In this document: positions 5,234 to 30,575 of the stretch, in pieces | Layout: every line of letters begins with the position of its first letter | Numbering within the stretch: the stretch's first letter is position 1 | NCBI RefSeq assembly: GCF_002355595.1 | Contig: NZ_AP017422.1 | Location: 5,212,823 to 5,276,822, forward strand | Origin: Filimonas lacunae | GTDB taxonomy: Bacteria > Bacteroidota > Bacteroidia > Chitinophagales > Chitinophagaceae | Direction of reading: 5' to 3' | Length of the DNA: 64,000 bases | Made by a program: the position numbers and the translations under genes | Notes under the pieces: model-generated | Told to the model about the DNA's origin: nothing | What the model saw: the letters and a program-made list of their open reading frames with translations, nothing else | Databases searched by the model: none

Positions 5234-6634
5234 TTACCATATATAGGTAGCTACAGCCCCTGCGTTAAGGCTGGTAACAGCTCTTTTGCCATTATCGTTA
5301 ATGTCAAAACGCCTCAATGTTGCGCCTGTATTCAGCACAATCAGTACCTTTTTGCCGTCGGGCCTTTTAAAAGCAACAGTTTTAAGGTCGGCCAACTCAT
5401 CCGATGCAATGCGAAACGATCCCGGCCTTACCAGTTTGGCCGAATGCGCCAGAATGTACCAGGCCGGATTTTTAGAGAAAGCATTGCCGCCAATAGTAGT
5501 TACGCCCAAACAACGGTCACAACCGCCCCTGTCTGTATGCGGATTATACAGCGTATCTGACGCCAGGTTCCACTCCAATACAGTTTTGCACCAATTTCGT
5601 GAAGCACCTATAGTAAGGTTTTGCACATGCTCGGCCAGGTCTTTACCCAGGTTTCCCGGTGCTCCCAGCCACTGCTCGGTGAAGTACAGGTTTTTATTCG
5701 GATAAGCTTCATGCACCTTACTTAACGCATCAATAGTACCTCCATACAAGTGAAAAGCACTACCATCTACATACTTGCGTGCTTTTTCGTTATCCATTAC
5801 AGCAATAGGGTAATCCGGCCTGTCGGCGTTGTGATCGTATACAATAATTTTTGTGCTGATACCCTGTTTTTCAAATACAGGCCCCAGGTGGTTGCCTACA
5901 AAATCGGCCTGCTGGCTGGCTGTCATAAACATGCTTGGATTATTACCGGGGTGTAATGGTTCATTTTGCACAGTAATAGCGTCTATTACAACACCCTCTT
6001 TTTTCATTTCCCGGATATACCTGGCCAGGTATTCTGCATATACCTGCTGATATTTTACCTGCAAGCTACCACCCCTGGTATCACCATTATCTTTCATCCA
6101 TACCGGTGCACTCCAGGGAGAGCCCAGTATTTTAATACGCGGGTTAATGGCCAGTATCTCTTTTAACAAGGGAAGCAGGTATAAAGTATCGTACCCCAGA
6201 CTGAAATGCGTTAAAGCTGTATCCGTTTGGCCGGCTGGCAAATCGTTGTAAGAAAACGTTTTTTCATCCAGGTCCGAAGCGCCTATACTAATGCGGATAT
6301 AACTGATGCCAATATTACTGCCGGTGGTATCAAACAATTGTAGCAACAAAGCTTTGCGGGCTTTGGCTTCCATACGCTCCATTACCATGGCGCTCCCCCC
6401 CGTAAGCGTTCCGCCAAAACCATCCATCTGCTGAAACCGCTTGCTATCATCTATATTGATAACAGGCAAACCGGAAGTAATGGCAGTAGCCTTTATATCC
6501 AATTTGCTACGCTGAAATAATACCTGTTTTTTAGCATCAGTAACCCACACCTCAGGCGTTTGCTTTTGAGCTTTTTGCGCGAAACTCCCTGCCAGGCAAA
6601 AAAAAGCACCCGTAACCAGCGCTATATGTTTCAT
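5234..6634 (-). CDS. Glycoside hydrolase family 30 (secreted beta-glycosidase)
   Basis: A 466-residue enzyme with a signal peptide (about residues 1-19, AGSFAQ cleavage region). The GH30 fold is marked by MDGFGGTLTGG (70-80), SYIRISIGASD (111-121), ILGSPWSAPVWMKDNG (159-174), the acid/base motif TVQNEP (E215) and the nucleophile motif YFTEQW (E310), with VLEWNL beyond. The C-terminus carries the small beta-sandwich (VAFKRPDGKKVLIVLN). GH30 includes glucosylceramidases, endo-beta-1,6-glucanases and beta-xylosidases; with a SusCD pair upstream, a beta-1,6-glucan target is my best guess. It is the third gene of the susC-susD-GH30 run, with a terminator-like hairpin between susD and this gene. 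Confidence 0.88.
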   Translation of the reverse strand: MKHIALVTGAFFCLAGSFAQKAQKQTPEVWVTDAKKQVLFQRSKLDIKATAITSGLPVINIDDSKRFQQMDGFGGTLTGGSAMVMERMEAKARKALLLQLFDTTGSNIGISYIRISIGASDLDEKTFSYNDLPAGQTDTALTHFSLGYDTLYLLPLLKEILAINPRIKILGSPWSAPVWMKDNGDTRGGSLQVKYQQVYAEYLARYIREMKKEGVVIDAITVQNEPLHPGNNPSMFMTASQQADFVGNHLGPVFEKQGISTKIIVYDHNADRPDYPIAVMDNEKARKYVDGSAFHLYGGTIDALSKVHEAYPNKNLYFTEQWLGAPGNLGKDLAEHVQNLTIGASRNWCKTVLEWNLASDTLYNPHTDRGGCDRCLGVTTIGGNAFSKNPAWYILAHSAKLVRPGSFRIASDELADLKTVAFKRPDGKKVLIVLNTGATLRRFDINDNGKRAVTSLNAGAVATYIW

Positions 6635-6708: not shown

Positions 6709-8214
6709 CTAATAACCCGGAGTCTGAATCAATGCCGGGTTTAAATCAATCTGATTTTGCGGAACAGGCATTAGCAAACGATAAGGCTGCACATTATAAT
6801 GTAGCTGATTTTGTACACCATTTACAATGCCACCCTGCTGCGCACTCATCACCTGAATGGCTTTACCGGTACGTACCAGATCAAACCAACGATGGCCTTC
6901 AAAAGCCAGTTCCATCCTTCTTTCATTGGCTATAATCGTTTCCGCATCAGCAGCAGTAGTTGCCGATTTTTCGCCCAGGTGAACACGCTCTCTAACTGCA
7001 TTCACCAACGCCATGGCACCCGTAATGTCGTTGTTTTTTACCAATGCTTCTGCTTTAAGCAACATAATATCGGGTAACCTCATAATATAGAAATCGTTGA
7101 GTCCGGTAGAAGGATCGTTATACTTCACAATGAATGGATAAGCGGTTGTTGGCCAGTTAGGATCGGAGAACGAGCCGGTGATGTTTAAAAAGGCAATAGA
7201 ACTGTTTAAACGTACAGCATCATTTTCCGTATTGAAAAGGTTTACCAGGTCGTTGGTAGGAATATTAAACTTCTTCCATGATCCACCCTCATACTTACCT
7301 ATTTGTCCGCCTATCAGGTTAGAAGGAATCCAGTTACCAATATTATCTGCACCGCCATAACCAAAATAATTCACTTCCCAGATGGCTTCGCTGTTATTCT
7401 TGTGGTTATTGTCCCAAAGAAAAGCATAATCACTTACCAGGCTATACTGTGGTATTACCTGGTTGCAGTAATACGCCACCGAATCCCAGTTTGGGGTAGG
7501 CATAGAAGCATACACCTTTGCAAGCAATGCATTTACAGCACCTTTGGTAATTAAATACCTGGTAGCCGCGCTATTCGTTTCCGTTGCACCTGCCTTTGCA
7601 AACCATAGATCGTTTAATATGGCGGTGTATACAGTATCTATAGAAGAACGGGCTACAATAGTAGAATTTAACAGGCTTTCCGAAGATGAAACATCCGGTG
7701 CTTTTAACAACAATGGAACATCACCAAACAGGCGCACCAAATCAAAATAACAAAACGCGCGGAAAAACCTGGCTTCGCTCAGCATCTGGCTTTTACGTAC
7801 TGCTGTTAACGCAGCATCAGTACAGCTTTCAATCTGTGGCAGAATGATGTTGGTACGGCCTATCATTTTGTAGGCATACTGCCAGTCACGGTTAAGATTG
7901 GCATTTAATGAATTGGCAGTGAACTCGTCCAATGTAATGTTAGCGGTGTTATCACCCCCCGCATAACAATTATCAGCAACGGCGTCACCATTAGTCATCC
8001 TGTCCAGGATGCTGAACTCCATAATATCGTACCCTTTATAATACAGGTACATGCCAGAGATAAGGCTTTCTGCATCTGTTGCCGTAATGTTTATTGTAGA
8101 ATCCGGTCGCACTACAGAGGTTACAGGCGATTTATCCAGCACTTTAGAGCAGCCCGCTGCCCCCCAGGTAATGACTGCCGCCAGTAAACTATATAATATA
8201 TTTTTATTTTTCAT
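6709..8214 (-). CDS. SusD/RagB-family outer-membrane glycan-binding lipoprotein
   Basis: A 501-residue lipoprotein: the signal sequence ends in a lipobox with the acylated cysteine at C22. The RagB/SusD fold is recognisable from EARFFRAFCYFDLVRLFGDVPLL in the N-terminal TPR-like region, LPDIMLLKAEAL, and the C-terminal NERRMELAFEGHRWFDLVRTGKA. SusD proteins form the lid over the SusC transporter and bind oligosaccharide at the cell surface. It lies 31 bases downstream of susC on the same strand, so the two are certainly co-transcribed. Confidence 0.93.
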   Translation of the reverse strand: MKNKNILYSLLAAVITWGAAGCSKVLDKSPVTSVVRPDSTINITATDAESLISGMYLYYKGYDIMEFSILDRMTNGDAVADNCYAGGDNTANITLDEFTANSLNANLNRDWQYAYKMIGRTNIILPQIESCTDAALTAVRKSQMLSEARFFRAFCYFDLVRLFGDVPLLLKAPDVSSSESLLNSTIVARSSIDTVYTAILNDLWFAKAGATETNSAATRYLITKGAVNALLAKVYASMPTPNWDSVAYYCNQVIPQYSLVSDYAFLWDNNHKNNSEAIWEVNYFGYGGADNIGNWIPSNLIGGQIGKYEGGSWKKFNIPTNDLVNLFNTENDAVRLNSSIAFLNITGSFSDPNWPTTAYPFIVKYNDPSTGLNDFYIMRLPDIMLLKAEALVKNNDITGAMALVNAVRERVHLGEKSATTAADAETIIANERRMELAFEGHRWFDLVRTGKAIQVMSAQQGGIVNGVQNQLHYNVQPYRLLMPVPQNQIDLNPALIQTPGY

Positions 8215-8245: not shown

Positions 8246-11218
8246 TTACAGGTTTACGTTAATTCCCGCCAGGAATATTTTAGCCTGCGGATAGGCTCCA
8301 TAATCAATACCCAGTGATACGTTCCTGTTGTCCTGGCTGTTGTTGGAAGATCCATAAGAACTCACTTCCGGATCAAAGCCAGTGTACTTAGTGATAGTAA
8401 ACAGATTTTGGCCAGAGATGTATACAGAAGCGCCTTTGAAACCTATTTTACTCATCAGCTTCTGATCCAGCCTGTAAGAAAGAGTGATGGTTTTAAAACG
8501 CAGGTAAGAACCATTTTCCAGGAAACGGGTAGAGATAGCAGAGTTATTATCACTGGCACGTTCTACACCCGGAATGTCGGTAATATCACCTGCCTTACGC
8601 CATCTGCGCAATACCGCTGTGCTTTGGTTACGCGAGTCTTTCATACTTTCTGTTTCAGACCTTACGCCATTATAAATTTTATTACCCTGTGAACCTTGCA
8701 AAAACACGCTCAGATCAAAGTTTTTGTAAGAAAACGTGTTGGTCATACCATACGTAAACGTAGGTAAAGCACTACCAATAAACTTACGGTCAGAGGGCAC
8801 CAGGCCGGAATAATCCACCTGCTCACCATTTTTATTTACATATAACTGCTTACCCGTTGCAGGATCAACACCAGCAGCCTGGTATCCAAAGAACTGACCT
8901 AAACCATATCCTTTAGAAAGGCTGATAGCATTACCCTTATCGTAGATAGCGCCAAATGCAGTAAGATTACCAATATCACCTGCAATAGCCAGTACCTTGT
9001 TTTGGTTAAAGGCAATATTGAAATCGGTAGTCCAGCTAAAGTCTTTTTTGAGAATGTTTTTACTGGATATCACAAACTCCTCCCCTATGTTACGCATAGA
9101 ACCACTGTTCATTAGCACACTGGATACAATTTGTCCGCTTAACGGTACACGCACCAACACATCGTTGGTTCTTTTCACATAAAAATCGGCAGTAAAGGTT
9201 AACCGCTTGTTTAAGAATGCCGCATCAATACCAACGTTGGTTTGTGTGGTCTTTTCCCAGGTAAGCGAAAGCGGCGCAATAGTACCTACCGACTGGTCAC
9301 CTGTGCTGGTGAAGTTGTTCAGATTTAAATATTCGTAGCTGCCTACACCTTCCTGGTTACCATTTTTACCCCAGGATGCACGCAGTTTTAAATCGCTCAC
9401 CACACGCACATTTTTCATGAAATTTTCTTCTGAAATTCTCCAACCGGCAGAGAAAGAAGGAAATGCGGCTGTTCTGTTGCCTGGTGCAAATTTGGAAGAT
9501 TTATCCACGCGCATATTAGCCTGGAACAGATACTTGCCGGCATAATCGTAAGTAACCCTGCCAAAATAAGACATCAGGCCCCACTCATCAATGGTTTTGG
9601 AAGGTGCACTTTTTACCTTAGCCCTGGCAAACAAACGGTTCCAGTCTTCATAACGATATTGCGAATCGATACGGGATGCAGAAATATAGGTTTGATCAAA
9701 ATGCGAGTCCTGCGCACTCCACCCTGCCAGTGCAGAAAAGTGATGGCTGTTCCAGTTTTTGGTATAGTTTAAAGTTTGTTCACTTAACCATACCCATTCC
9801 CTGCTGGTGGTTTCGTTAAGCGAGCCCTGATCGGTGCGGCCCTGCTGCGTAGCTACCGGATCTCTGTAATAATGGTTTTCGTTGGATTTGTAGTCAATAC
9901 CAAAACGAGATTGAAACACCAGACCCTTTAACAAAGTAGCATCTGCTCCTAAATTAGATACAAACCGGTCGTTTACTGTTTTGCTATACTGGCCTTTGAT
10001 AGCACCCAGCGGGTTTTCCCATCCCGTTTGCGGGTTTTGACCAATATATTGACCATTAGCCTGGTAATAAGGAACGGTAGAAGGCGTAGCCAATGCAGAC
10101 AGCACCACACCACCTCTTGCCACACCGGCATTATCAGTTACATCATTACTTCTGTTGCGTGATGCCAGGGTAGAAGTATTTAAAGTCAACCACTTGCTTA
10201 CTTTGGTAGAGAGGTTTAACCGGGCATTCATACGATTGAAAGAAGCCGGCTTTACCATACCTGTCTGGTCCATATAGCCCAACGACAGATAATGTTGCGT
10301 TTTTTCACTACCACCGGAAACAGCCACCTGGTAGTTTTGTTGATTACCGGTTTTAAACACTTCATCCTGCCAGTTAATATCTGTAGCAGCTACCATAGCA
10401 TCTGTAACAATAGTAGACTGATATAATTCATTGGCATAGTCCTGGTATTGTTTCGCATTCAGCACATGCAGCTTTTTAGTAGTAGTGCTGGTGCCGTAGT
10501 AAGAAGTAAGATCTACCCTCGACTGTCCGTTCTTGCCTTTTTTAGTAGTAATTACCACTACCCCATTGGCAGCCCTGGTACCATATATAGCAGCAGAAGC
10601 CGCATCTTTTAATATAGAGATAGATTCAATATCGTTAGGGTTATAAGCGCTGATATCCGTCATAGGAATACCATCCACTACATACAAAGGGTCATTACCG
10701 GCACTAATGGAAGAAGAACCACGAACACGGATAGAAAGCCCTGCACCAGGCTTACCCGAAACCGAGGTTACCTGCACACCAGCCGCTTTACCCTGTAATG
10801 CTTCTCCGGCATTAACCAATGGCCTGTTGGCCAGGTCGGCAGCAGAAACCACTGCTACAGAACCTGTCAGATCTTTCTTTTTTTGCGAGCCATAGCCCAC
10901 CACTACCACCGCATCCATTTCGCCAGTGGCAGGTAATAATGTTACACTAAAATCGTTACGGCCATTTACCAGAATAGTTTGCGTGCCATACCCGATAAAT
11001 GAAAATTCCAGTACAGCCCTGCTATCTTTTACCGCAATGGAGTATTCTCCATTACTAGTGGTTACAGTACCCACAGCAGTACCTTTAACCTGAACAGATA
11101 CTCCGGCAATTCCATTACCGGAAGAATCTTTAACTACCCCCTTAATGGTAGTTTGCCCTATTGACACCAGGCAAAGCATCATAAAGAAAGCAGTCAGCAA
11201 CAAAATTTTTTGCTTCAT
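8246..11218 (-). CDS. SusC/RagA-family TonB-dependent glycan transporter
   Basis: A 990-residue outer-membrane transporter counted from the ATG at 11216-11218, where a clear signal peptide begins (MKQKILLLTAFFMML, ending near IGQ). The frame extends 21 codons upstream without signal-like sequence, so I reject that longer start. Order: signal peptide (1-22), carboxypeptidase-D-like regulatory domain (TIKGVVKDSSGNGIAGVSV, to about 100), TonB-box region with VVVGYGSQKKKDLTGSV, plug domain with PLYVVDGIPM and ESISILKDAASAAIYGTRAANGVVVITTKKG, then the barrel. It would import an oligosaccharide bound by the adjacent SusD. It lacks the N-terminal STN domain used for FecR/ECF signalling, unlike the second SusC in this window, which fits control by the separate regulator upstream. 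Confidence 0.93.
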   Translation of the reverse strand: MKQKILLLTAFFMMLCLVSIGQTTIKGVVKDSSGNGIAGVSVQVKGTAVGTVTTSNGEYSIAVKDSRAVLEFSFIGYGTQTILVNGRNDFSVTLLPATGEMDAVVVVGYGSQKKKDLTGSVAVVSAADLANRPLVNAGEALQGKAAGVQVTSVSGKPGAGLSIRVRGSSSISAGNDPLYVVDGIPMTDISAYNPNDIESISILKDAASAAIYGTRAANGVVVITTKKGKNGQSRVDLTSYYGTSTTTKKLHVLNAKQYQDYANELYQSTIVTDAMVAATDINWQDEVFKTGNQQNYQVAVSGGSEKTQHYLSLGYMDQTGMVKPASFNRMNARLNLSTKVSKWLTLNTSTLASRNRSNDVTDNAGVARGGVVLSALATPSTVPYYQANGQYIGQNPQTGWENPLGAIKGQYSKTVNDRFVSNLGADATLLKGLVFQSRFGIDYKSNENHYYRDPVATQQGRTDQGSLNETTSREWVWLSEQTLNYTKNWNSHHFSALAGWSAQDSHFDQTYISASRIDSQYRYEDWNRLFARAKVKSAPSKTIDEWGLMSYFGRVTYDYAGKYLFQANMRVDKSSKFAPGNRTAAFPSFSAGWRISEENFMKNVRVVSDLKLRASWGKNGNQEGVGSYEYLNLNNFTSTGDQSVGTIAPLSLTWEKTTQTNVGIDAAFLNKRLTFTADFYVKRTNDVLVRVPLSGQIVSSVLMNSGSMRNIGEEFVISSKNILKKDFSWTTDFNIAFNQNKVLAIAGDIGNLTAFGAIYDKGNAISLSKGYGLGQFFGYQAAGVDPATGKQLYVNKNGEQVDYSGLVPSDRKFIGSALPTFTYGMTNTFSYKNFDLSVFLQGSQGNKIYNGVRSETESMKDSRNQSTAVLRRWRKAGDITDIPGVERASDNNSAISTRFLENGSYLRFKTITLSYRLDQKLMSKIGFKGASVYISGQNLFTITKYTGFDPEVSSYGSSNNSQDNRNVSLGIDYGAYPQAKIFLAGINVNL

Positions 11219-11358
11219 AATGTTTGATGTAATTGAAGAACTGTTCACTAAACAGCTAATGGCATACGGAGGACGTTGCAAATCGTTGTTAAGAAGTACG
11301 GGGTTGATACAAGCAATCCGAATGTTCCTAGCTGGTTGAAATGTTAAAACTTACCAGT

Positions 11359-11366
11359 CAAAATTA
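11359..11366 (-). promoter_or_regulatory. Candidate promoter of the GH30-locus susC
   Basis: On the minus strand TAATTTTG matches the -7 consensus. A TTTG at 11388-11391 sits 21 bases upstream, close to the expected -33 spacing. The implied leader to susC is about 130 bases. The directly repeated motifs at 11438 and 11528 lie upstream of this element, where an activator would bind. Confidence 0.4.
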
Positions 11367-11437
11367 GAGAGAATTCAAAGGCAAAAACAAATATTTTTCA
11401 CGTAACTAATTGATAAATAAACAATTGCAGCAATTCC

Positions 11438-11458
11438 AATACGCTTCATTACCGTAAC
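11438..11458. repeat. Direct repeat copy A upstream of susC
   Basis: This copy shares 17 of 21 positions with copy B at 11528-11548. The conserved cores are AATACGCTT and TTACCGT separated by two variable bases. It lies between the membrane regulator gene and susC. Confidence 0.6.
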
Positions 11459-11498: not shown

Positions 11499-11527
11499 GG
11501 TGCAAAGCCAGTTGCCGGAAAAAAGCT

Positions 11528-11548
11528 AATACGCTTTGTTACCGTTAA
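11528..11548. repeat. Direct repeat copy B after the regulator stop
   Basis: Second copy of the AATACGCTT-N2-TTACCGT motif, 90 bases from copy A and five bases beyond the regulator's stop codon. The two copies flank the terminator hairpin. Confidence 0.6.
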
Positions 11549-11553
11549 ATAAA

Positions 11554-13440
11554 TTAGCAAACCAGCTTGCTCCACCCCTGCTCATCCCCCTGTTTCAGTT
11601 CTTTTTTACGCTCTTCCATTAGGGTGCGCACCCGGTTTAAATAGGTCCAGCAGGTGCTTTGCCGGATGCCAATAGTGTCGGAAAGTTTCTGGGAAGAGAT
11701 TTTCCCTTTGGAATTATAGATCAAAAAAACCATGTAGAAAGCCTTGGTAATGGGAATACGGCTGTTTTGAAACAAGGTATTGGCCAGCACAGATTCTTCA
11801 TAATCACACTGGCCGCACCGGCGGCTGAATAGCTGGTGTCCGGCAAAATAGTGGTGATGCCCGCATTTTTTACAGGCATAAGCGCTGCCCCATTTTAATT
11901 GCGCCAAAAACTGGTAACAGCTATCTGCATCCGGATAAATTTTGCTGAACTCTTCAAAATCAACCGATGCAGAAAGCACCCTCGCCTTGGTTACCTTTTC
12001 TACATTCGTGCGCAGGCTTTTATTATCCTGCTCCAGCAGGGCATTCATTCGCGAAATTTCTTCTGCCTGCTGCTGCAAAAGCACATTTACTTCATTTAAC
12101 TCGTTGTTTTGCAGCTCAATAACGCTATTCTTTTCTACCAGCTCTTTCGTTCTTTCTGCCACCTGCTGCTCTAACCGTTGGTTTAAAGCATCTTTCAACA
12201 GCACATTCGCAGTCATTTGCTTAATCACTTCCTGCCGGGCACGCTCACGCTTGATAAACAACAAACGCACCTTATCGCCAATAGCAAAAGAGAGGAAAAA
12301 CATTTCGAGAATAAAACCCAGTGTAAGACTATAATAACTTACCGCTCCAAAATTTAACCAGCGGTATCCCAGCATAATAAAAAACTTGAGCATAAAGCCT
12401 GTAAACAAAAAGCTGTAGCCCAGCACAAAAAAGCGGGCGGGCCGGTAGCCTGTTTTAAAACGGTAAATGCCCGCTCCAAAAGCTACCGACAAAGGAATAA
12501 GTTCTAAAAACTTATAATTGAACCAAACCGGTTTTATCCACCAGCAAAACAGAAAAAAGATTACCCGCAAGGCTATTACCGCCATAATAAGCCGGTACAC
12601 ACGGGGAAGGCTTTCCTTCACATGCAGCAGTTTGCTGGCAAATAACAAGGTAAACACGCTTAGCCCCAGCTGCGGCACCGCAAAAGCATACTGGTTCCAA
12701 TGGATGGCATGTGGCCACAGGTATTGGTAAGCAATGCCATCAATACACATTTCGTACAGGCCCACACTTAATATATACAGTACATAATATAAGTATTGCA
12801 TTTGCCTTACTGCAAAAAACACGATGAGGTTGTACAGGGCAAAAATGAAGATCATCCCATAAAAAAGCCCGAACGATAAATACTCGTCTAAGGCATACCC
12901 CACAAAACGGGTTACAGACCGCAATACAATAATAATGTCGGCAATTTGCGACGATTTGATGCGGAAGTAGTACACCTGCTCCCGGTTATTGTTATTATCT
13001 ACCTGTAGCTCAAAATTCTTATGACGGAACAAACGGTGTTCAAACGGTTGTAAATCGCCAATACGCGTTTCATGGTAATTTCCCTGGTTATCTGGCAGGT
13101 AGGCCGTGATATCGTCAATGGTTTGATCGAAAAATTCCAGGATAAACGGCTTATTTACTGCCGAATCGTGTTTTATTTTTACCCGGTACCAGTAATAAAT
13201 ACCTAGTTGTACAATCTGTGGAGTACCCGGCCCTTGATTTTTTTGAAACAGGGCATCGCCCGAATGCAGTATCGTAGAAAAAGGAATGGAGCCAGAACTG
13301 TCTTTTAGAAAAGAGATTTCATCTGCCACAAAAATATGTTCTTCCAGCTGCGGGGTAACAGCCACCATACGCTGCGCAAAAACCGGAAAACACCACATCA
13401 CCAGGCCGAAAGCAGCCCATATAGCCAAGCTTTTTCTCAT
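11554..13440 (-). CDS. 7TMR-DISM membrane sensor fused to an IS1595-transposase-like zinc ribbon and HTH
   Basis: A 628-residue protein with an unusual domain order. A signal peptide (1-22) is followed by an extracytoplasmic 7TMR-DISMED2-like beta domain (about 30-175), which in this family binds carbohydrate-like ligands. A seven-helix membrane block (183-395, starting YLSFGLFYGMIFIFALYNL) and a long coiled coil (396-485) come next. The C-terminus matches the start of IS1595-family transposases: FSKIYPDADSCYQFLAQLKWG, a four-cysteine zinc ribbon (C523, C526, C542, C545), NTLFQNSRIPITKAFYMVFLI, and a helix-turn-helix (SSQKLSDTIGIRQSTCWTYLNRVRTLM). It ends where the transposase DDE nuclease would begin, so no transposition is expected. 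I infer a membrane-tethered DNA-binding regulator of the susC-susD-GH30 genes downstream on the same strand. The alternative is a sensor whose zinc ribbon binds a protein. Confidence 0.8.
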   Translation of the reverse strand: MRKSLAIWAAFGLVMWCFPVFAQRMVAVTPQLEEHIFVADEISFLKDSSGSIPFSTILHSGDALFQKNQGPGTPQIVQLGIYYWYRVKIKHDSAVNKPFILEFFDQTIDDITAYLPDNQGNYHETRIGDLQPFEHRLFRHKNFELQVDNNNNREQVYYFRIKSSQIADIIIVLRSVTRFVGYALDEYLSFGLFYGMIFIFALYNLIVFFAVRQMQYLYYVLYILSVGLYEMCIDGIAYQYLWPHAIHWNQYAFAVPQLGLSVFTLLFASKLLHVKESLPRVYRLIMAVIALRVIFFLFCWWIKPVWFNYKFLELIPLSVAFGAGIYRFKTGYRPARFFVLGYSFLFTGFMLKFFIMLGYRWLNFGAVSYYSLTLGFILEMFFLSFAIGDKVRLLFIKRERARQEVIKQMTANVLLKDALNQRLEQQVAERTKELVEKNSVIELQNNELNEVNVLLQQQAEEISRMNALLEQDNKSLRTNVEKVTKARVLSASVDFEEFSKIYPDADSCYQFLAQLKWGSAYACKKCGHHHYFAGHQLFSRRCGQCDYEESVLANTLFQNSRIPITKAFYMVFLIYNSKGKISSQKLSDTIGIRQSTCWTYLNRVRTLMEERKKELKQGDEQGWSKLVC

Positions 13441-23657: not shown

Positions 23658-24233
23658 TTGAATAATTCGCAGGTTGGGGATGAACTACTATTAACGCGTT
23701 TATCAAAAGGCGATAAACTGGCGTTTGATCAACTGTATCAGCAATACAGCCATCCCCTGTACCTGAACCTGTTAAAGCTTACCAAATCGGAAGCCATTGC
23801 CGAAGAGCTGTTACAGGAGATTTTTGTAAGAATCTGGAATAAGAAAGATACACTGGACATACACACAGGTTTGGGCAACTATCTGTTTAAGATAAGCCAG
23901 AACCTGGTGTATGATTTCTTTAGAAAAGCGAAACAGGACAAACAGCTGCGTTCACAAATAATAGCTGTAGCCGCCGAAGAATACACCCATATTGAAGAAA
24001 ACCTGCTGTCTAAAGAAAATCGCACCCTCCTTCACCGCGCCATTTCCACCCTTCCTCCTGTGCGCCAACAGGTGTTTAAGCTCTGTAAACTGGAAGGAAA
24101 ATCATACGACGAAGTTGCAGAAGAATTGGGCATCGGTGTAAGCACGGTAAACGATCATATCGTAAAAGCTACCAAACATATCAAAAGATATTTTCCCATT
24201 ATCTTACTCATTATCAGCACACTAAACAACTAA
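23658..24233 (+). CDS. ECF sigma factor (FecI/SigW-like) with a TTG start
   Basis: A 191-residue extracytoplasmic-function sigma factor. Region 2 (AFDQLYQQYSHPLYLNLLKLTKSEAIAEELLQEIFVRIW) and region 4 (LLHRAISTLPPVRQQVFKLCKLEGKSYDEVAEELGIGVSTVNDHIVKATKHI) are clear. No in-frame ATG lies before region 2, so translation most likely begins at TTG 23658-23660, giving MNNSQVGDE. It is followed by a FecR anti-sigma gene and an STN-type SusC, the standard trans-envelope signalling trio of Bacteroidota. It presumably directs transcription of the susC/susD pair downstream. Confidence 0.9.
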   Translation: MNNSQVGDELLLTRLSKGDKLAFDQLYQQYSHPLYLNLLKLTKSEAIAEELLQEIFVRIWNKKDTLDIHTGLGNYLFKISQNLVYDFFRKAKQDKQLRSQIIAVAAEEYTHIEENLLSKENRTLLHRAISTLPPVRQQVFKLCKLEGKSYDEVAEELGIGVSTVNDHIVKATKHIKRYFPIILLIISTLNN

Positions 24234-24269
24234 TTAAAAAATATTCACTTTTTTTTCAAAACAGAGCCG

Positions 24270-25382
24270 ATGGAAAAGTTTCACCGCGCGTCTTCAATAA
24301 AAAGAGAGAAAGTGCCGCTGGCTGATTTCAATACCATATTCGTCCGCTACCTGAACAATAACTGTTCACCGGAAGAAACTGCTTTTCTAATGGAGCAGTT
24401 AGCAAGCGGCGAATTAACAGAAGAGCAGCAGCAGCTACTGGAACAACACATCACTAACTGGACTGCTTTGCAGCAAAATGGAGAACCTATTCCCGCCACA
24501 CTGCAAAACAAGCTGGACAATATAAAAAAACTGGTAGACACGGAAGTGATCCGGCAAACCCAACCTGCCAAACAGGTAAAGTTAAGCTGGCGCACCTATG
24601 CCGCAGCCGCTGCCGTAACAGGCCTGGTGGTAGTGGGATATTGGGGGTTCAAAAACCTGTCGCCCATAGTAGAAAAAACAAAAACATTTGCAGCACAGCC
24701 GGGCGAAAGAAGAAGTCTTCGTTTACCCGACGGCTCACAAGTGATATTGAACGGTGAAAGCAACCTGGTTTTATCGGAAAACTTCACTACTGGCAACAGG
24801 GAAGTGACTTTATCCGGAGAAGCTTATTTCGATGTTTCGCAAAACGCTGCACATCCATTTATCATACACACTATGACAATGGATATAGAGGTACTGGGCA
24901 CTGCATTTAATGTGCGCTCTTACCCCGATGAAGCTGCAGAAGAAACCTCGCTTATACGCGGCAAGGTGCAGGTAACACTGAAAAAAGAAGGAGAATCAGG
25001 CAAAAGCTATATACTGCTGCCCATGCAAAAACTGGTGGTAGCAAAAAGCAGGCAGGGCGATTCGGCTAACAACCACACGGTAAGCAGTCCAACGCCACAT
25101 GTAGACAGTTTGTTTAAAAACAGATTGCTGAACAACCTGCCCGAAACAGCCTGGACCGAAAATAAACTGGCATTTGACAATGCTACACTGGAAACAGTGG
25201 CCGATAAAATGGAAAAATGGTATGGCATTACCGTTGAAATTAAAAACGACGCCATTAAAAACATTCCTTACACCGGTAGTTTTGAAGGCGAAACACTTGA
25301 AAAAGTGATGGATGCCATTAAATATTCTATTCCTATGCTCCATTACAAAATGGAGGGTAGTCGAAAACTAATCCTGTACTAA
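24270..25382 (+). CDS. FecR-family anti-sigma factor
   Basis: A 370-residue inner-membrane protein. The cytoplasmic N-terminal region (1-105) would bind the sigma factor, one membrane helix spans about 109-126 (TYAAAAAVTGLVVVGYWGF), and the periplasmic FecR domain follows (AQPGERRSLRLPDGSQVILNGESNLVL, then GEAYFDVSQNAAHPFIIHT and VLGTAFNVRSY). The C-terminal 70 residues match the DUF4974 region that contacts the STN domain of the SusC partner. It starts 36 bases after the sigma gene and is closed off from susC by a strong terminator. Confidence 0.92.
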   Translation: MEKFHRASSIKREKVPLADFNTIFVRYLNNNCSPEETAFLMEQLASGELTEEQQQLLEQHITNWTALQQNGEPIPATLQNKLDNIKKLVDTEVIRQTQPAKQVKLSWRTYAAAAAVTGLVVVGYWGFKNLSPIVEKTKTFAAQPGERRSLRLPDGSQVILNGESNLVLSENFTTGNREVTLSGEAYFDVSQNAAHPFIIHTMTMDIEVLGTAFNVRSYPDEAAEETSLIRGKVQVTLKKEGESGKSYILLPMQKLVVAKSRQGDSANNHTVSSPTPHVDSLFKNRLLNNLPETAWTENKLAFDNATLETVADKMEKWYGITVEIKNDAIKNIPYTGSFEGETLEKVMDAIKYSIPMLHYKMEGSRKLILY

Positions 25383-25412
25383 CGGGGTATATACATGAGA
25401 AAGACAAAAGAA

Positions 25413-25440
25413 AGAGGCGCCGCCCGGCGCCTCTTCTCTT
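25413..25440 (+). terminator. Terminator between fecR and the second susC
   Basis: A GC-rich stem of about 9-10 bp (AGAGGCGCC / GGCGCCTCT, arms ending 25413 and 25434) with a short loop is followed by TCTCTTT. It insulates the sigma/anti-sigma pair from susC, so susC needs its own, probably sigma-dependent, promoter in 25441-25540. Confidence 0.75.
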
Positions 25441-25540
25441 TAAAAAAGTTACCAGGGAGAATGTAAAGGTTTGCGAGGCTCTTGCATTTCCCGTAACTTA
25501 CAAAACCAAAACTAAGGTATACAAAATTGTATATCCTGGC

Positions 25541-28500
25541 ATGCCCTTACCTAAAGGGTTAAACTATTTATTTCGCATGATGAGATTGACCACCTTTGTG
25601 TTACTCTGTGGTTGCCTGTTTTTTGCCGATAAAGGCATTGCACAAAGCGCCCGGGTAACGTTAAGTGTAAAACAAATAAGCCTCGAACAATTTTTCAATA
25701 TCATTGAAAGCCAAACCGGCTACCGCTTTTCTTACAGCGCAGCTGTTATTCCCATACACAAAAAGGTAGATATCTGGGCCAAAAACGAATCACTGGAAAC
25801 GCTACTTACCCGCACGCTAAAACAGCTGGGGCTTAGCCACCGCCTGATGAGCGAAAAGGTAATAGGCATTACCGATACCCGTTTAACAGCGCCCTCTTCT
25901 ATTCCCCTTCCTCCGCCCTATCCACAACTACCCGATACTATTACCATACATGGTACCGTAGTAGATGAAAACGGCAAACCTATTGCCAACGCAGCTATAC
26001 AGGTAAGAGGAACCAATAAAGGCATTAGCAGTGCGCCTGACGGCACATTCAGCATTTCACTTACAGCACCGGCCTTTACTTTAGATATTAGCTCTTTAAA
26101 CTTTGTACCACGTGAATTAACCGTTAGCAGCGGCATTACCCGTTATCGCATTATGATGGAAGCTACTGCCGAATCGCTCAGCGAAATTGTGGTGGTAGCT
26201 TATGGCACCACCCGTAAAGGCGCTTATACCGGTTCAGTAGCACAGATTAATTCAGAAAAAATAGCCGAACGCTCCGTAACCAACGTACTGAATTATATAG
26301 AAGGATCTGCACCAGGCATACAAAGCACTTCCTCCAACGGGCAGCCCGGCTCATCCCCCACCATACGCATCAGGGGCTTTGGATCGGTTAGCGCTTCCAA
26401 CGCGCCTTTGTTTGTATTGGACGGGGCTATTTACGATGGCAACATCTCCGATATTAACGCCAACGATATTGACAACTTTTCCATTTTAAAAGACGCGGCC
26501 GCAACCGCCTTATATGGTAATAAAGCCGTGAATGGTGTTATTATGATCAGCACCAAAAAAGGAAAAAGAGGGCAAAACCGCGTGCAGCTGCGGGTGAACC
26601 AGGGCATTTACACCCGTGGCATGCCCGAATACAACCGGGTGAATGCCTATCAATACTATCCTTTAATGTGGGAAGCGCTGCGTAACAGCCTGGTATACCC
26701 GGCCTCCGGCACTAATGCAATTCCCATAGCAGACGCCAACCAGCTGGCTTCCGGCGTGTATCCCCGTTTTACAACAGGTGCCAATGCTGGCAAACAAAAC
26801 TACAATGGCACCGCCTATTCCGATATCAGCCAGCTGCTGGTGAATAACCCGTTTAACGTAGCCAGCACAGATATAGTAAGAGTGGATGGCACCATTAACC
26901 CCAATGCCCGATTATTATACCCAGATGATCTCAACTGGTACAAAGCGCTATCACGCACCGGCCAGCGGCAGGACTATACACTGGCCACCAGCGGCGGCAC
27001 AGAAAGAAGGGACTATTATATTTCCCTGGGTTACAACAATGAAAAAGGGTTTATTAACCAGTCGGACTTTCGCAGGTTCACCGGCCGTGTAAATGTGAAC
27101 ACTCAGCCCCTGAACTGGTTTAAAACCGGCCTTAACCTGTCGGCTGCCATAGCCAATGGCAATAATGCCAACGACGAATTGAGTACCGGTTTCGTAAACC
27201 CCTTCTTCTTTACACGCGACATTGGCCCTATTTACCCCGTGTACCAGCACAATGCCACCACAGGCGCATTTATACTGGACAATAACGGTCAAAAGCAATA
27301 CGAGCTGGGCCTAAACCGGGCATCAGGTGGCAAAGCAGGCCGCAACGTAGTAGCTGAAACCGCTCTGAATAAGAACATCAAAAAAACAAACACTATCAGC
27401 GCCCGCAGCTACGGCACCATCACCCTGTATAAAGGCTTAAACTTTACCTCCAACATAAGTGTAGACCTCGCCAACCTCGACAACCCTACCTACGACAACA
27501 AAATTGTAGGTGATGGAGCAGGCGACAATGGCCGGGCCAGCAAAACCAGCAGCGCCACCACCAGCTATACTTTTAACCAGCTGTTCACCTATAACCAATC
27601 ATTCAACCAGCATCATATAGATGTGCTGGCCGGTCACGAAAACTACGATTTCAATTACCGGTATTCTTATGGGGCACGCTCCGGACAGATATTAGAAAAC
27701 AATACAGAACTGATCAACTTTACCACTACTACAGACCTCACCTCCTATACCTATAAAGACCGTACAGAAAGCTATTTATCACGTATCAACTACGATTTTA
27801 AAAGCAAATACCTTTTTTCAGCTTCCTTTCGCCGTGATGGTTCTTCCCGCTTTTACCAGCATGCCCGTTGGGGTAATTTCTGGTCGGTAGGTGCAGGTTG
27901 GCGTTTAGACCAGGAAAAATATATCAGCCAGCTGAAATGGGTGAATATGTTAAAGCTGCGCGGCTCGTATGGTGTGGTAGGCAACAACTTTATCCTCAAC
28001 TCTACCGGCGACAACAACTACTACGCCTGGCAGGCCCTGTACCAGCTAAACAGGAACAACGCGCTGGAACCCGGTTACCTGCAATCGTCACTGGAAAACA
28101 AAGACCTGAAATGGGAAACCAACCGACAGCTGGACCTGGGTGTAGACTTTAGCTTATTCAACAACCGGTTGAGCGGTACCATAGAATACTTTAACAAAAA
28201 CTCATACGATCTGTTGTACAGTGTTCCCCTGCCGGTTTCAGGAGGTATTGATGCTAAGAACATGAACATTGGCACCGCTTACAACCGCGGCTTAGAAGTG
28301 CAGCTTACTGGCACCTGGTTGCAGAAGAAAAACTTTAGCTGGGCCACTACCCTCAACTGGACTATTTTCTCTAATAAAATTACCAGCCAACCCCAACAGG
28401 AAATTATTGAAGAAACCAGCAAACGAATGGTGGGGCATTCTATCTATGACTATTGGCTGCGTCAATGGTACGGAGTAGACCCAAATGATGGAGCAGGCCT

Positions 28501-29092
28501 GTTTGTAGCCGATAAATTTGTGGCTGGTACCACACGCATTAACGCAAAAGGAGATACTGTAACAACCGATTACTCTAATGCCCGCTTTGCTTATTCCGGC
28601 ACTGCTATACCTGATTTTTATGGCAGCATTAGCAACACGGTAGCCTACAAAAACTTCAAACTAAGCTTTTTAATCACCTACCAGGTAGGCGGCAAAACTT
28701 ACGATGCCCCTTATGCCTACCTGATGAACACCGGTAATTATGGCGAAGCGTTACATACCGATGTATTACGCCGCTGGCAAAAACCGGGCGATATTACCGA
28801 TGTGCCGCGTATGGATTACAGCCAGGTAAGCAACTACCAGCAACAAAGCACCCGCTACCTGGTAAGTAGCAGCTACCTTAACTTTCGCTCAGCAACCTTT
28901 ACCTGGGCAATACCCGCAAAAACAACGGCGTTATTGCATATACAGGATGCCCTGCTTTATATTACAGCCGAAAACCTGGGCTGGTTAACAGCACGCAAAG
29001 GCATGAACCCGCAACAAGCGTACTCGGGTTTAGCTTTTAATGCTTACGCACCGGCACGCATTTACACCCTGGGCCTAAACATAACTTTATAG
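25541..29092 (+). CDS. SusC/RagA TonB-dependent transporter with STN signalling domain
   Basis: An 1183-residue outer-membrane transporter. The hydrophobic signal segment lies at about 13-34 (ATG codons at 25541, 25577 and 25580 are possible starts). An STN domain (about 38-110, VTLSVKQISLEQFFNIIESQTGYRFSYS) follows, then a carboxypeptidase-D-like domain (TIHGTVVDENGKPIANAAIQV, about 132-220), the TonB box and plug (VVVAYGTTRKGAYTGSV; PLFVLDGAIYDG; SILKDAAATALYGNKAVNGVIMISTKKG) and the barrel. The STN domain marks a transducer that signals substrate capture to FecR. The substrate cannot be deduced because no enzyme gene is attached. Confidence 0.94.
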   Translation: MPLPKGLNYLFRMMRLTTFVLLCGCLFFADKGIAQSARVTLSVKQISLEQFFNIIESQTGYRFSYSAAVIPIHKKVDIWAKNESLETLLTRTLKQLGLSHRLMSEKVIGITDTRLTAPSSIPLPPPYPQLPDTITIHGTVVDENGKPIANAAIQVRGTNKGISSAPDGTFSISLTAPAFTLDISSLNFVPRELTVSSGITRYRIMMEATAESLSEIVVVAYGTTRKGAYTGSVAQINSEKIAERSVTNVLNYIEGSAPGIQSTSSNGQPGSSPTIRIRGFGSVSASNAPLFVLDGAIYDGNISDINANDIDNFSILKDAAATALYGNKAVNGVIMISTKKGKRGQNRVQLRVNQGIYTRGMPEYNRVNAYQYYPLMWEALRNSLVYPASGTNAIPIADANQLASGVYPRFTTGANAGKQNYNGTAYSDISQLLVNNPFNVASTDIVRVDGTINPNARLLYPDDLNWYKALSRTGQRQDYTLATSGGTERRDYYISLGYNNEKGFINQSDFRRFTGRVNVNTQPLNWFKTGLNLSAAIANGNNANDELSTGFVNPFFFTRDIGPIYPVYQHNATTGAFILDNNGQKQYELGLNRASGGKAGRNVVAETALNKNIKKTNTISARSYGTITLYKGLNFTSNISVDLANLDNPTYDNKIVGDGAGDNGRASKTSSATTSYTFNQLFTYNQSFNQHHIDVLAGHENYDFNYRYSYGARSGQILENNTELINFTTTTDLTSYTYKDRTESYLSRINYDFKSKYLFSASFRRDGSSRFYQHARWGNFWSVGAGWRLDQEKYISQLKWVNMLKLRGSYGVVGNNFILNSTGDNNYYAWQALYQLNRNNALEPGYLQSSLENKDLKWETNRQLDLGVDFSLFNNRLSGTIEYFNKNSYDLLYSVPLPVSGGIDAKNMNIGTAYNRGLEVQLTGTWLQKKNFSWATTLNWTIFSNKITSQPQQEIIEETSKRMVGHSIYDYWLRQWYGVDPNDGAGLFVADKFVAGTTRINAKGDTVTTDYSNARFAYSGTAIPDFYGSISNTVAYKNFKLSFLITYQVGGKTYDAPYAYLMNTGNYGEALHTDVLRRWQKPGDITDVPRMDYSQVSNYQQQSTRYLVSSSYLNFRSATFTWAIPAKTTALLHIQDALLYITAENLGWLTARKGMNPQQAYSGLAFNAYAPARIYTLGLNITL

Positions 29093-29093
29093 A

Positions 29094-30575
29094 ATGTATC
29101 TTTTAAAGTCCATATCGCTTACATCATTGGTTATTACCGGTCTTTTACTCACTGGCTGTAAAAAGTCGTACCTCAACACCACCCCCAACGATAGCGCAAC
29201 TATAGACGAAGCTTTTGCCAACACTACCACCGCATGGGGTGCTATCAACGGCATTCATCGCTCGCTGTACATTCAATATGCCCAGCAGGATCAGGGTGGA
29301 CAAGGCTCAGTGGCCATTAACCTGGACTATATGGGCGAAGACCTGGTAAAAACAGGCACAGGCAGTGGCTGGTTCACCAATTCGTACCGCTGGAAAGCAC
29401 ACCGGGCCGTTACCGGAACTACCGATTTATATCCTTATCGCTTTTACTATAAAATCATCCACAATGCCAATATGATCATTGAAAATGTGGACAGGGCCAC
29501 CGGACCCGCTGCTGACAAAAGGGCTATCAAAGGCGAAGCCTATGTATATCGCGCCTGGGCTCATTTTGTGCTGGTGCAGTTATACGGGAAAAGGTACAAC
29601 AAAGACGCAGCGCCTAATACCCAGCCCGGCGTTCCCTTACGTTTAAGCAGTAGCACCGATCCATTGGCACGTGCCACTGTGGAACAGGTATACACACAGG
29701 TGAATACAGATTTAGACAGCGCTATCACCAACTTAACAGGCTATAACAGAACCTATAAATCGCACTTTAACGTGCAGGTAGCACAGGGAATAAAAGCCCG
29801 GGTGGCCTTAACCATGCAAAACTGGGATAGCGCCGCAGTGTATGCCGCCACTGCAAGGCAAGGCTACAGCTTGATGAGCCGCGCCGACTACCTCACGGGT
29901 TTTAATAACATTTCCAATATAGAGTGGATGTGGGGCAGCCAGCAAACAGCCGATCAAACCACCTACTTCTATTCTTTCTTTGCTTATATGAGTGCGAATT
30001 ATGCGTCATCCGACATTCGCACCAACCCCAAAGCCATCAGCTCAATGCTGTATAGAAACATTAGCAAAACGGATGTAAGAAAGCAGTTGTGGGATTCTAC
30101 CGGGGCCAATACCAGCTTCCCAATCCCCGCCAATGGCGTTCGTAAGCAGTATATGAACCGGAAGTTTTTAACTGCTACCAGCAGCAGCATTGGCGATGTG
30201 CCCAATATGCGGGCAGCCGAAATGTATTTAATTGAAGCAGAAGCCAAAGCCCGCGCCGGGGATAATGGTGGCGCGCAGGATGCACTGTACCAACTAGCTT
30301 TTCAGCGCGACTCTATGTATACAAAATCTACACGCACAGGTCAGGCGCTGATTACCGAAATAATGCGACAACGCCGCACAGAATTATGGGGAGAAGGATT
30401 CCGTTTCCTCGATTTAAAACGCTTAAACTTACCATTGGATAGAACAGGGGCTAATCACGATGCTACGTTGGCCGAGGTGTTTACTGTGCCTGTAGAAAGC
30501 ATCCTGTGGCAATGGTTAATACCACAGGATGAAATAAATTATAGTAGCGGGCTGGTTACACAAAACGATTTGTAA
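29094..30575 (+). CDS. SusD/RagB-family lipoprotein, partner of the STN-type SusC
   Basis: A 493-residue lipoprotein with its lipobox cysteine at C22 (LLLTGC). SusD features include the KGEAYVYRAWAHFVLVQLYGKRY helix region, PNMRAAEMYLIEAEAKARAGD, and the C-terminal EIMRQRRTELWGEGFRFLDLKRLNLPLDR. Its ATG begins one base after the susC stop, so translation is tightly coupled. The next gene, bshC, lies on the other strand five bases away, so this locus ends here without a glycosidase or other enzyme. Confidence 0.93.
   Translation: MYLLKSISLTSLVITGLLLTGCKKSYLNTTPNDSATIDEAFANTTTAWGAINGIHRSLYIQYAQQDQGGQGSVAINLDYMGEDLVKTGTGSGWFTNSYRWKAHRAVTGTTDLYPYRFYYKIIHNANMIIENVDRATGPAADKRAIKGEAYVYRAWAHFVLVQLYGKRYNKDAAPNTQPGVPLRLSSSTDPLARATVEQVYTQVNTDLDSAITNLTGYNRTYKSHFNVQVAQGIKARVALTMQNWDSAAVYAATARQGYSLMSRADYLTGFNNISNIEWMWGSQQTADQTTYFYSFFAYMSANYASSDIRTNPKAISSMLYRNISKTDVRKQLWDSTGANTSFPIPANGVRKQYMNRKFLTATSSSIGDVPNMRAAEMYLIEAEAKARAGDNGGAQDALYQLAFQRDSMYTKSTRTGQALITEIMRQRRTELWGEGFRFLDLKRLNLPLDRTGANHDATLAEVFTVPVESILWQWLIPQDEINYSSGLVTQNDL

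Follow-up and report, generated by a model that had tools for sequence, protein, structure and literature searches.

A 7TMR-DISM receptor with an IS1595-type DNA-binding end as a probable membrane-bound regulator of a susC-susD-GH30 locus in Filimonas lacunae

Three dedicated types of regulator are recognised for the polysaccharide utilization loci (PULs) of Bacteroidota (PMC3878776, PMC10316084), given in the former source as SusR-like proteins, hybrid two-component systems (HTCS) and pairs of an extracytoplasmic function (ECF) sigma factor and an anti-sigma factor. SusR is described there as a membrane-spanning one-component PUL activator. Three of five SusR-like regulators of B. thetaiotaomicron are co-localized with susC/D, SusR3 (BT3309) is listed among the SusR-like regulators, and their predicted operators consist of two direct repeats 67 or 77 bp apart (PMC3878776). 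In Proteobacteria, the DNA-binding domain of the ChiS family is also found behind 7TMR-DISM (PMC8092284). Here we analysed a stretch of 64,000 nucleotides of the Filimonas lacunae genome (NZ_AP017422.1, positions 5,212,823 to 5,276,822; hereafter the window), in which one gene upstream of a susC-susD-GH30 locus encodes a 7TMR-DISM receptor ending in an IS1595-type zinc ribbon and helix-turn-helix (HTH). Taken together with the mechanism proposed below, it is very likely that this protein is a membrane-bound one-component PUL transcription activator whose output was recruited from an IS1595-type transposase. The gene and its locus comprise the following features.

11554..13440, minus strand: regulator gene, 7TMR-DISM sensor plus IS1595-type zinc ribbon/HTH, open reading frame (ORF) of 628 aa
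12922..13323, minus strand: 7TMR-DISMED2 extracellular domain, residues 40-173 (Pfam PF07696, 5.8e-24)
12271..12885, minus strand: seven-helix membrane domain, residues 186-390 (Pfam 7TMR-DISM_7TM, 7.1e-43; helices in the AlphaFold2 (AF2) model)
11971..12258, minus strand: signalling helix/coiled coil, about residues 395-490 (AF2 helices)
11800..11928, minus strand: IS1595-type zinc ribbon, residues 505-547, with C523, C526, C542 and C545 (Pfam PF12760)
11599..11766, minus strand: HTH region, residues 559-614 (NCBIfam NF033547 positions 1-57)
8246..11281, minus strand: susC-like TonB-dependent transporter, predicted target (Pfam; TIGR04056, 879.5 bits)
6709..8214, minus strand: susD-like lipoprotein, predicted target (Pfam)
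5234..6634, minus strand: glycoside hydrolase of family GH30, predicted target (Pfam; best solved relative 5ngk, 4.7e-78)

A first-pass annotation of the window had proposed a single chain made of a 7TMR-DISM sensor, a coiled coil, a zinc ribbon and an HTH, located upstream of and on the same strand as susC-susD-GH30. Pfam, NCBIfam and the AF2 model all bore out this build. The location was confirmed as well: regulator, susC, susD and GH30 follow in this order, on the minus strand throughout, and the ATG at 11218 is the likelier start of susC. PF07695 (7TMR-DISM_7TM) was matched over its whole profile (1-205 of 205), and a hydrophobic stretch at residues 3-23 is the sole basis for a putative signal peptide. 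The best structural match of the full-length model by Foldseek was the RetS periplasmic domain (3jyb, E 2.9e-6, TM-score 0.74 by target length), followed by weaker matches of the extracellular part to GH2 enzymes (about 2e-3). AF2 predicted long helices at residues 371-444 and 453-490, with a block predicted local distance difference test (pLDDT) of 46-79 there.

We ruled out an ordinary 7TMR-DISM histidine kinase, as a kinase domain was not found in the window protein at E<=1; two other matches in the same genome (L002 and L003), kinase-like by eye, resemble the regulator only up to residue 496. Six locus genes (regulator, susC, susD, GH30 and two upstream genes) were scanned with Pfam and none contained DUF6377 (PF19904, the probable SusR family), histidine kinase, receiver, AraC, sigma or FecR domains at E<=1, in agreement with the claim that the locus has no SusR, hybrid two-component or ECF/FecR regulator. 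About 10 kb away, on the plus strand (23658-30575), ECF sigma, FecR, SusC and SusD genes stand in a row, an ordinary sigma/anti-sigma PUL with its own susCD.

For the window protein alone, both transposase matches remained below the curated cut-offs: Zn_ribbon_IS1595 aligned with residues 505-547 at 4.5e-4 (20.6 bits versus a Pfam cut-off of 25.4), and positions 1-57 of the 215 of NF033547 (IS1595 transposase) aligned with residues 559-614 at 3e-7 (30.5 bits versus 75). Because the window protein by itself was sub-threshold, we scanned 26 C-terminal modules of its family. All 26 matched both PF12760 and NF033547 at E<=0.01 (best E 2.2e-8 and 1.3e-9, respectively), and the relatives L103 (39.7 bits) and L172 (26.8 bits) exceeded the Pfam cut-off, so the likeness to IS1595 profiles predicted for the C-terminus was recovered in the protein and in all family members scanned. 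Among 81 aligned homologues, the window's included, C523, C526, C542 and C545 were conserved at >=98%, as were K566, F568, Y569, G579, I581-S583, R593, Q594 and T596-W598 of the HTH region. No DDE catalytic domain was detected: PF12762 was not matched in the regulator at E<=1, NF033547 is covered at positions 1-57 only, and the chain stops at residue 628, 14 residues past the end of that match. This corresponds to the earlier description of a missing DDE nuclease, with the chain ending where it should begin. The module modelled alone showed three helices (AF2, pLDDT 83), and the HTH is assigned from sequence and these three predicted helices.

A scan for close relatives, with one genome per species, confirmed 102 stretches, of which the best 80 were kept. 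These share 49-63% identity with the regulator across nearly the full length and belong to Chitinophaga, Pedobacter, Mucilaginibacter, Dyadobacter and other genera; one record labelled Beijerinckiaceae (L043) groups with the window's locus and is probably a misassigned metagenome bin. We placed the module in a tree of 94 rows (64 regulator, 24 transposase and 6 short proteins), omitting identical modules and matches below 90 positions; at least 6 of the 64 regulator rows are duplicate copies. All 64 fell into one cluster (97/93 support), beside IS1595-like transposases, a result read with the caveat of few columns and long branches (tool warning). The cluster also encloses two short stand-alone rows, and a parsimony count requires 2-3 changes because of the short-protein rows. 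One domestication from an IS1595 transposase, long ago, is thus probable, as the simplest reading of the tree and not as a proof. The transposase origin suggested in the first-pass annotation was upheld by this placement.

Two observations concern the tree neighbours. Genome G162 carries ten scattered, divergent IS1595-like matches (L105, L126-L133); the fetched ones (295-314 aa) are among the nearest transposases in the tree, inverted repeats lie near L127, L129 and L133, and the catalytic residues of L126 look altered by eye. This set may be an old insertion sequence group or partly domesticated. Also, L107 encodes on its minus strand (1194-1607) a stand-alone zinc ribbon plus HTH of 137 aa, with neither DDE domain nor sensor, which groups with the regulators in the tree and is a possible soluble relative.

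The module was found on a second type of sensor: three genomes encode, between them, five Reg_prop/Y_Y_Y proteins (997-1090 aa) that have it as their C-terminus.

L077, 1651-4923: Reg_prop/Y_Y_Y protein with the module
L192: Reg_prop/Y_Y_Y protein with the module, directly upstream of susC-susD
L193-L195: Reg_prop/Y_Y_Y proteins with the module, all from one genome with a listed contamination of 7%

In the tree, the L077 module nests among Sphingobacteriaceae regulators. Its presence on a second sensor type makes the module look like a portable output. These data bear on the idea that the C-terminus is a decaying transposase insertion, an accidental fusion without function. Such an origin would suit the weak profile matches of the window protein itself; it is contradicted by the near invariance of zinc ligands and HTH-region residues, and the intact reading frames of 80 relatives from several genera, the single tree cluster and the reuse of the module on a second sensor make it extremely improbable.

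Linkage to PUL genes was then evident from the 80 relatives. In 64 of them the same strand carries susC no more than 1.5 kb downstream, and in 74 GH30 is found within 10 kb; 77 have one or the other, and of the three with neither, one is at a contig end. Only GH30 (74), susC (64) and susD (62) are widely conserved within 8 kb of the regulator, each remaining neighbour family occurring in at most 23 loci, and the commonest other regulator neighbour is a two-component pair (18/80 loci, identity by eye). In a sample drawn evenly from the phylum, susC-susD lies downstream on the same strand for all 11 long-ORF regulators (the window and 10 others): seven are adjacent to it and four are separated by one or two genes, the two intervening genes examined being GH3 and GH2. 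The Filimonas genome has at least 56 susC genes in 7.8 Mb (56 scored among 200 candidates), and we estimate that a random gene would have a susC that near in roughly 2-4% of cases. The linkage of homologues to susCD, on which the interpretation as a PUL regulator depended, was therefore found in both samples. Among seven further loci from multi-copy genomes, susC is downstream at L174 and L177 (two regulators) and L175 is cut at the regulator; among 16 further module-bearing loci it is downstream in six (L192, L201 and L204-L207). The order sugar kinase, murQ, regulator, site, susC, susD, GH30 is kept in two genomes of the same genus (L204, L205), and murQ/BadF neighbours are present in the window and in both of these genomes. 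A regulator paralogue at L202 adjoins sugar-kinase-like and transporter-like genes (by eye) and not susCD.

We compared 65 leaders, that is, the DNA between regulator and susC. Their commonest 10-mer, AAGCGTATCA, occurs in 46 of 65 and extends to a 17-bp asymmetric (non-palindromic) candidate site, GGTATTNAAGCGTATCA. Of 92 core matches, 91 have the same orientation, facing the gene, and 52 of the 65 susC leaders carry two direct copies of the 17-bp site 89-93 bp apart. In the window, the two copies were scored with a position weight matrix.

11527..11543, minus strand: candidate operator site 1, GGTAACAAAGCGTATTA (21.2 bits)
11437..11453, minus strand: candidate operator site 2, GGTAATGAAGCGTATTG (19.2 bits), 90 bp from site 1

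A Pedobacter-trained matrix found 48 sites in 32/32 other leaders, whereas 100 dinucleotide shuffles gave 0.07 on average. On both strands of the flanks, the same matrix gave 11 matches per 596 kb in the Chitinophaga group, three per 377 kb in the Mucilaginibacter group and none in 258 kb of Dyadobacter/Siphonobacter. With the Chitinophaga group as training set, 3 of 51 other leaders went undetected. These tests are not fully independent of their training sets, because the core was first found across all leaders together. The exact pattern GGTANNNAAGCGTATYR has two copies in the 7.8-Mb Filimonas genome, at sites 1 and 2 of this leader; when one mismatch is allowed, there are 28 matches versus 16 for the reversed control. 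Among 16 relatives without adjacent susC, six (Mucilaginibacter L063, L065 and L067-L070) have sites of 15.7-29.3 bits before GH30 and two (L059, L062) a site before another ORF. Since such sites stand before GH30 where susC is not adjacent, the site, where found, tends to follow the target promoter.

Co-occurrence of site and module was examined in 201 genomes of family f3, which we identify as Sphingobacteriaceae from its genome G421, whose module is the same as that of the Desertivirga locus L077. The spaced pair AAGCGTATYN{80,86}AAGCGTAT was found in 22 of 66 genomes with a module match versus 2 of 135 without (p 2e-10 by Fisher's test, which takes no account of kinship), while a reversed control gave one match. 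Eighteen of the 25 places are within 500 bp of the regulator's module, five are elsewhere in module genomes and two are in module-less genomes (one inside an ORF, one intergenic). The AAGCGTAT core is kept also in 2 of 3 leaders of family f9 (L165, L166). We considered whether the operator is a relic of transposon ends, by searching inverted repeats and applying the matrix to 19 fetched loci (160 bp before and 120 bp after the gene; the right-hand repeat of three G352 loci falls outside the scored stretch). This was not supported: the flanks of IS1595-like genes reached 3.0 bits at best and were mostly negative, versus 9-29 for leader sites. A 4-base GCGT likeness in one repeat of L181 is too short to mean anything.

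The paired site has a regular relation to a predicted promoter, which in the window lies as follows.

11359..11390, minus strand: predicted Bacteroidota-type susC promoter (TTG at 11388-11390, 21-bp spacer, TAATTTTG at 11359-11366)

We searched the leaders for TTG-N17-21-TAnnTTT, which we take to be the Bacteroidota-type promoter consensus. The set comprised 61 leaders, L082 (no site), L060, L072 and L075 being omitted from the 65. In 46 of them a promoter was present at a phased distance from the promoter-proximal site; in two it was only elsewhere and in 13 there was no match. Measured from the start of the site, the -7 box begins at 77 bp in one leader, at 87-89 bp in 18 (87 bp from the start of site 2 in the window) and at 99-100 bp in 27, L057 belonging to the 99-bp group. 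Two Pedobacter loci are one step apart (L029 at 88, L031 at 99). Steps near one helical turn suggest that a protein touches polymerase from one constant side of the DNA; the independent evidence for phasing amounts to three values, because related leaders share a value. Sixty aligned leaders also contain an extra conserved block at +27 to +50 from the start of site 2 (window 11403-11426), with a consensus near CTAATTATCAGT.ATTTA.

This geometry bears on the sign of regulation. The protein could be a PUL regulator acting as a repressor, or a membrane tether released by glycan: the sign is not readable from sequence, and we know of no activation surface on IS1595 DNA-binding ends. Site 2, though, is located upstream of the -33 box and not over the promoter, and it keeps its helical phase in steps of about 11 bp, as expected for polymerase contact. 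SusR, of similar build, also activates (PMC3878776). Repression or tethering is on these grounds unlikely.

As an activator, the protein would work as follows. The periplasmic DISMED2 domain would bind an oligosaccharide freed from the substrate of GH30/SusCD, and the seven-helix domain and coiled coil would relay the signal to the cell interior. As a dimer or larger assembly, the protein would then use its zinc-ribbon/HTH ends to grip the two same-facing 17-bp sites about 90 bp apart before susC, the promoter-proximal one setting the protein on a fixed DNA face relative to RNA polymerase, with transcription of susC-susD-GH30 as the outcome. Glycan sensing is suggested by domain resemblance only. 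The closest solved relative of the GH30 enzyme, 5ngk, carries the name glucosylceramidase and is, we assume, a Bacteroides beta-1,6-glucanase; the BT3309 locus is presumably a beta-1,6-glucan GH30 PUL. As a first guess, the ligand is perhaps a beta-1,6-glucan fragment. Enzymes near other family members include GH3, GH2, GH16, GH5 with a carbohydrate-binding module, and alginate lyase, so that ligands probably differ among family members.

Several observations weigh against this reading or narrow it. The full-length AF2 model is moderate (pLDDT 73.6, predicted template modelling score 0.55), and Foldseek returned no significant PDB fold for the module (best E 0.44). Leader counts are not independent events, because the leaders are related by descent. 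A matrix from just three Dyadobacter/Siphonobacter sites was unspecific (73 matches in Pedobacter flanks). Among the 16 relatives in which susC is not adjacent, eight lack any site scoring at least 15 bits; three of these loci are cut. The exact spaced pair, a criterion of modest sensitivity, is missing in 44 of the 66 module genomes of f3, and in 4 of the 22 pair-bearing genomes it is not beside the regulator. Similarly, no susC was found downstream on the same strand at L176 (contig end), L178, L179 and L180, nor downstream in 10 of the 16 further loci (L193-L200, L202 and L203), some of which are at contig ends; L193 runs to its contig end within an ORF. With many module loci lacking a nearby susC, the family probably extends beyond PUL control.

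Two more points speak for a particular alternative, in which a different transcription factor reads the paired site, and the 7TMR protein has its DNA targets elsewhere or signals through contacts with other proteins. The extra conserved block after site 2 may be the site of a second factor or a part of a composite operator, and no such site (the AAGCGTAT core in 0 of 5 leaders) was found in family f8, though its regulators adjoin susCD. This alternative is improbable, since the spaced pair co-occurs with the module across the 201 genomes and mostly stands beside it, and no other regulator gene was seen within 8 kb in more than 18 of the 80 loci. Direct binding of the paired site by the membrane-bound regulator is the preferred explanation. 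The earlier interpretation as a PUL regulator is supported by the match of the C-terminus and the linkage to susCD, to which the conserved candidate operator and the promoter geometry, not seen at that stage, bring extra support.

The module is distributed patchily across the phylum, which argues against universality. In the Bacteroidota sample it occurs in 39 of 395 genomes at 1e-12, in 11 of the 39 within ORFs of more than 600 aa; the other matches, among those listed, are mostly in ORFs of about 280-345 aa, a transposase length. In the family of F. lacunae, 14 of 195 genomes have a match at 1e-22 or better (nine of them in ORFs >600 aa); for the order that includes genome G166 (probably Cytophagales) the count is 101 of 291 at the same threshold. 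The 66 of 201 f3 genomes were counted at 1e-20, and in four of them (G099, G504, G542 and G584) nothing but a transposase-like match or a fragment was found. G690, G764 and G782 hold 12, 11 and 13 module matches per genome, respectively, an expanded set of paralogues.

Compared with known systems, the regulator resembles SusR-like proteins in that a single chain, encoded beside susCD, joins a periplasmic sensor to a membrane span and a C-terminal HTH, and in its candidate operator of far-spaced direct repeats, 89-93 bp apart versus 67 or 77 bp (PMC3878776). Its sensor and its DNA-binding domain are other than those of SusR: DUF6377 is lacking (no PF19904 at E<=1), and hhalign found an HTH-like likeness over just 25-28 columns, with probabilities of 4% and 22%. 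From their architecture and susC neighbours, DUF6377/PF19904 proteins are probably the SusR family; in those seen, a zinc ribbon was not matched, and L220 has TPR matches in its periplasmic part. The Filimonas genome itself has two DUF6377 proteins of SusR-like build, L213 and L220, the latter directly upstream of a susC. Reg_prop/Y_Y_Y is the usual sensor type of HTCS, and it is shared by the second architecture of the module family (L077, L192-L195). Unlike in HTCS, histidine kinase, receiver and AraC domains are absent at E<=1 and the DNA-binding module is attached directly. Unlike in ECF sigma/FecR pairs, neither sigma-70 region 2/4 nor FecR was found in the six locus genes.

The sensor and membrane domains are those of the 7TMR-DISM receptors RetS, LadS and SagS. 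Known outputs of such receptors are kinases, cyclases and the like. A zinc-ribbon/HTH output is not described in the portions of PMC8092284 and PMC1592074 considered here. The ChiS domain, compared by description, is a cryptic HTH variant of Proteobacteria, for which PMC8092284 mentions no transposase origin, the word 'transposase' being absent from its text. Within open-licence PMC, which covers no preprints and few subscription journals, no paper was found that combines 7TMR-DISM with Bacteroidetes or with zinc ribbon, and 7TMR-DISM together with a word starting 'susc' returned PMC8544897 alone, on Pseudomonas SagS, where the word is probably 'susceptible'. The first-pass annotation knew of no PUL regulator described with such a build. 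That claim had to be narrowed, since a one-component PUL activator that spans the membrane is already known in SusR. With SusR and with the ChiS domain behind 7TMR-DISM, the build is known in kind, while the output module and its transposase origin are new as far as the open-licence literature shows. The N-terminal zinc ribbon plus HTH is common to the module and to IS1595/ISXO2-like transposases, which are probably its parent; the module is distinguished from these by the missing DDE domain and its fusion behind a membrane sensor, and, in the fetched loci, the operator matrix found nothing above 3.0 bits in the flanks of IS1595-like genes.

We propose, with reasonable confidence, that these proteins form a fourth class of PUL regulators in Bacteroidota beside SusR, HTCS and ECF/FecR: it would combine at least two unrelated types of membrane sensor (7TMR-DISM and Reg_prop/Y_Y_Y) with an IS1595 output domesticated once, act on conserved pairs of same-facing sites separated by some nine turns of the helix and draw the promoter towards the inner membrane, and it would be spread patchily over several orders, in some of which it has expanded to about a dozen matches per genome. 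Bacteroidota have dozens of sugar-uptake loci per genome, and a probable further type of regulator for them in Chitinophaga, Pedobacter, Mucilaginibacter, Dyadobacter and such genera comes with a candidate operator sequence that makes regulons predictable. It would also offer a clear bacterial case in which a membrane receptor, and a second receptor type too, acquired the DNA-binding end of a transposase as its output.

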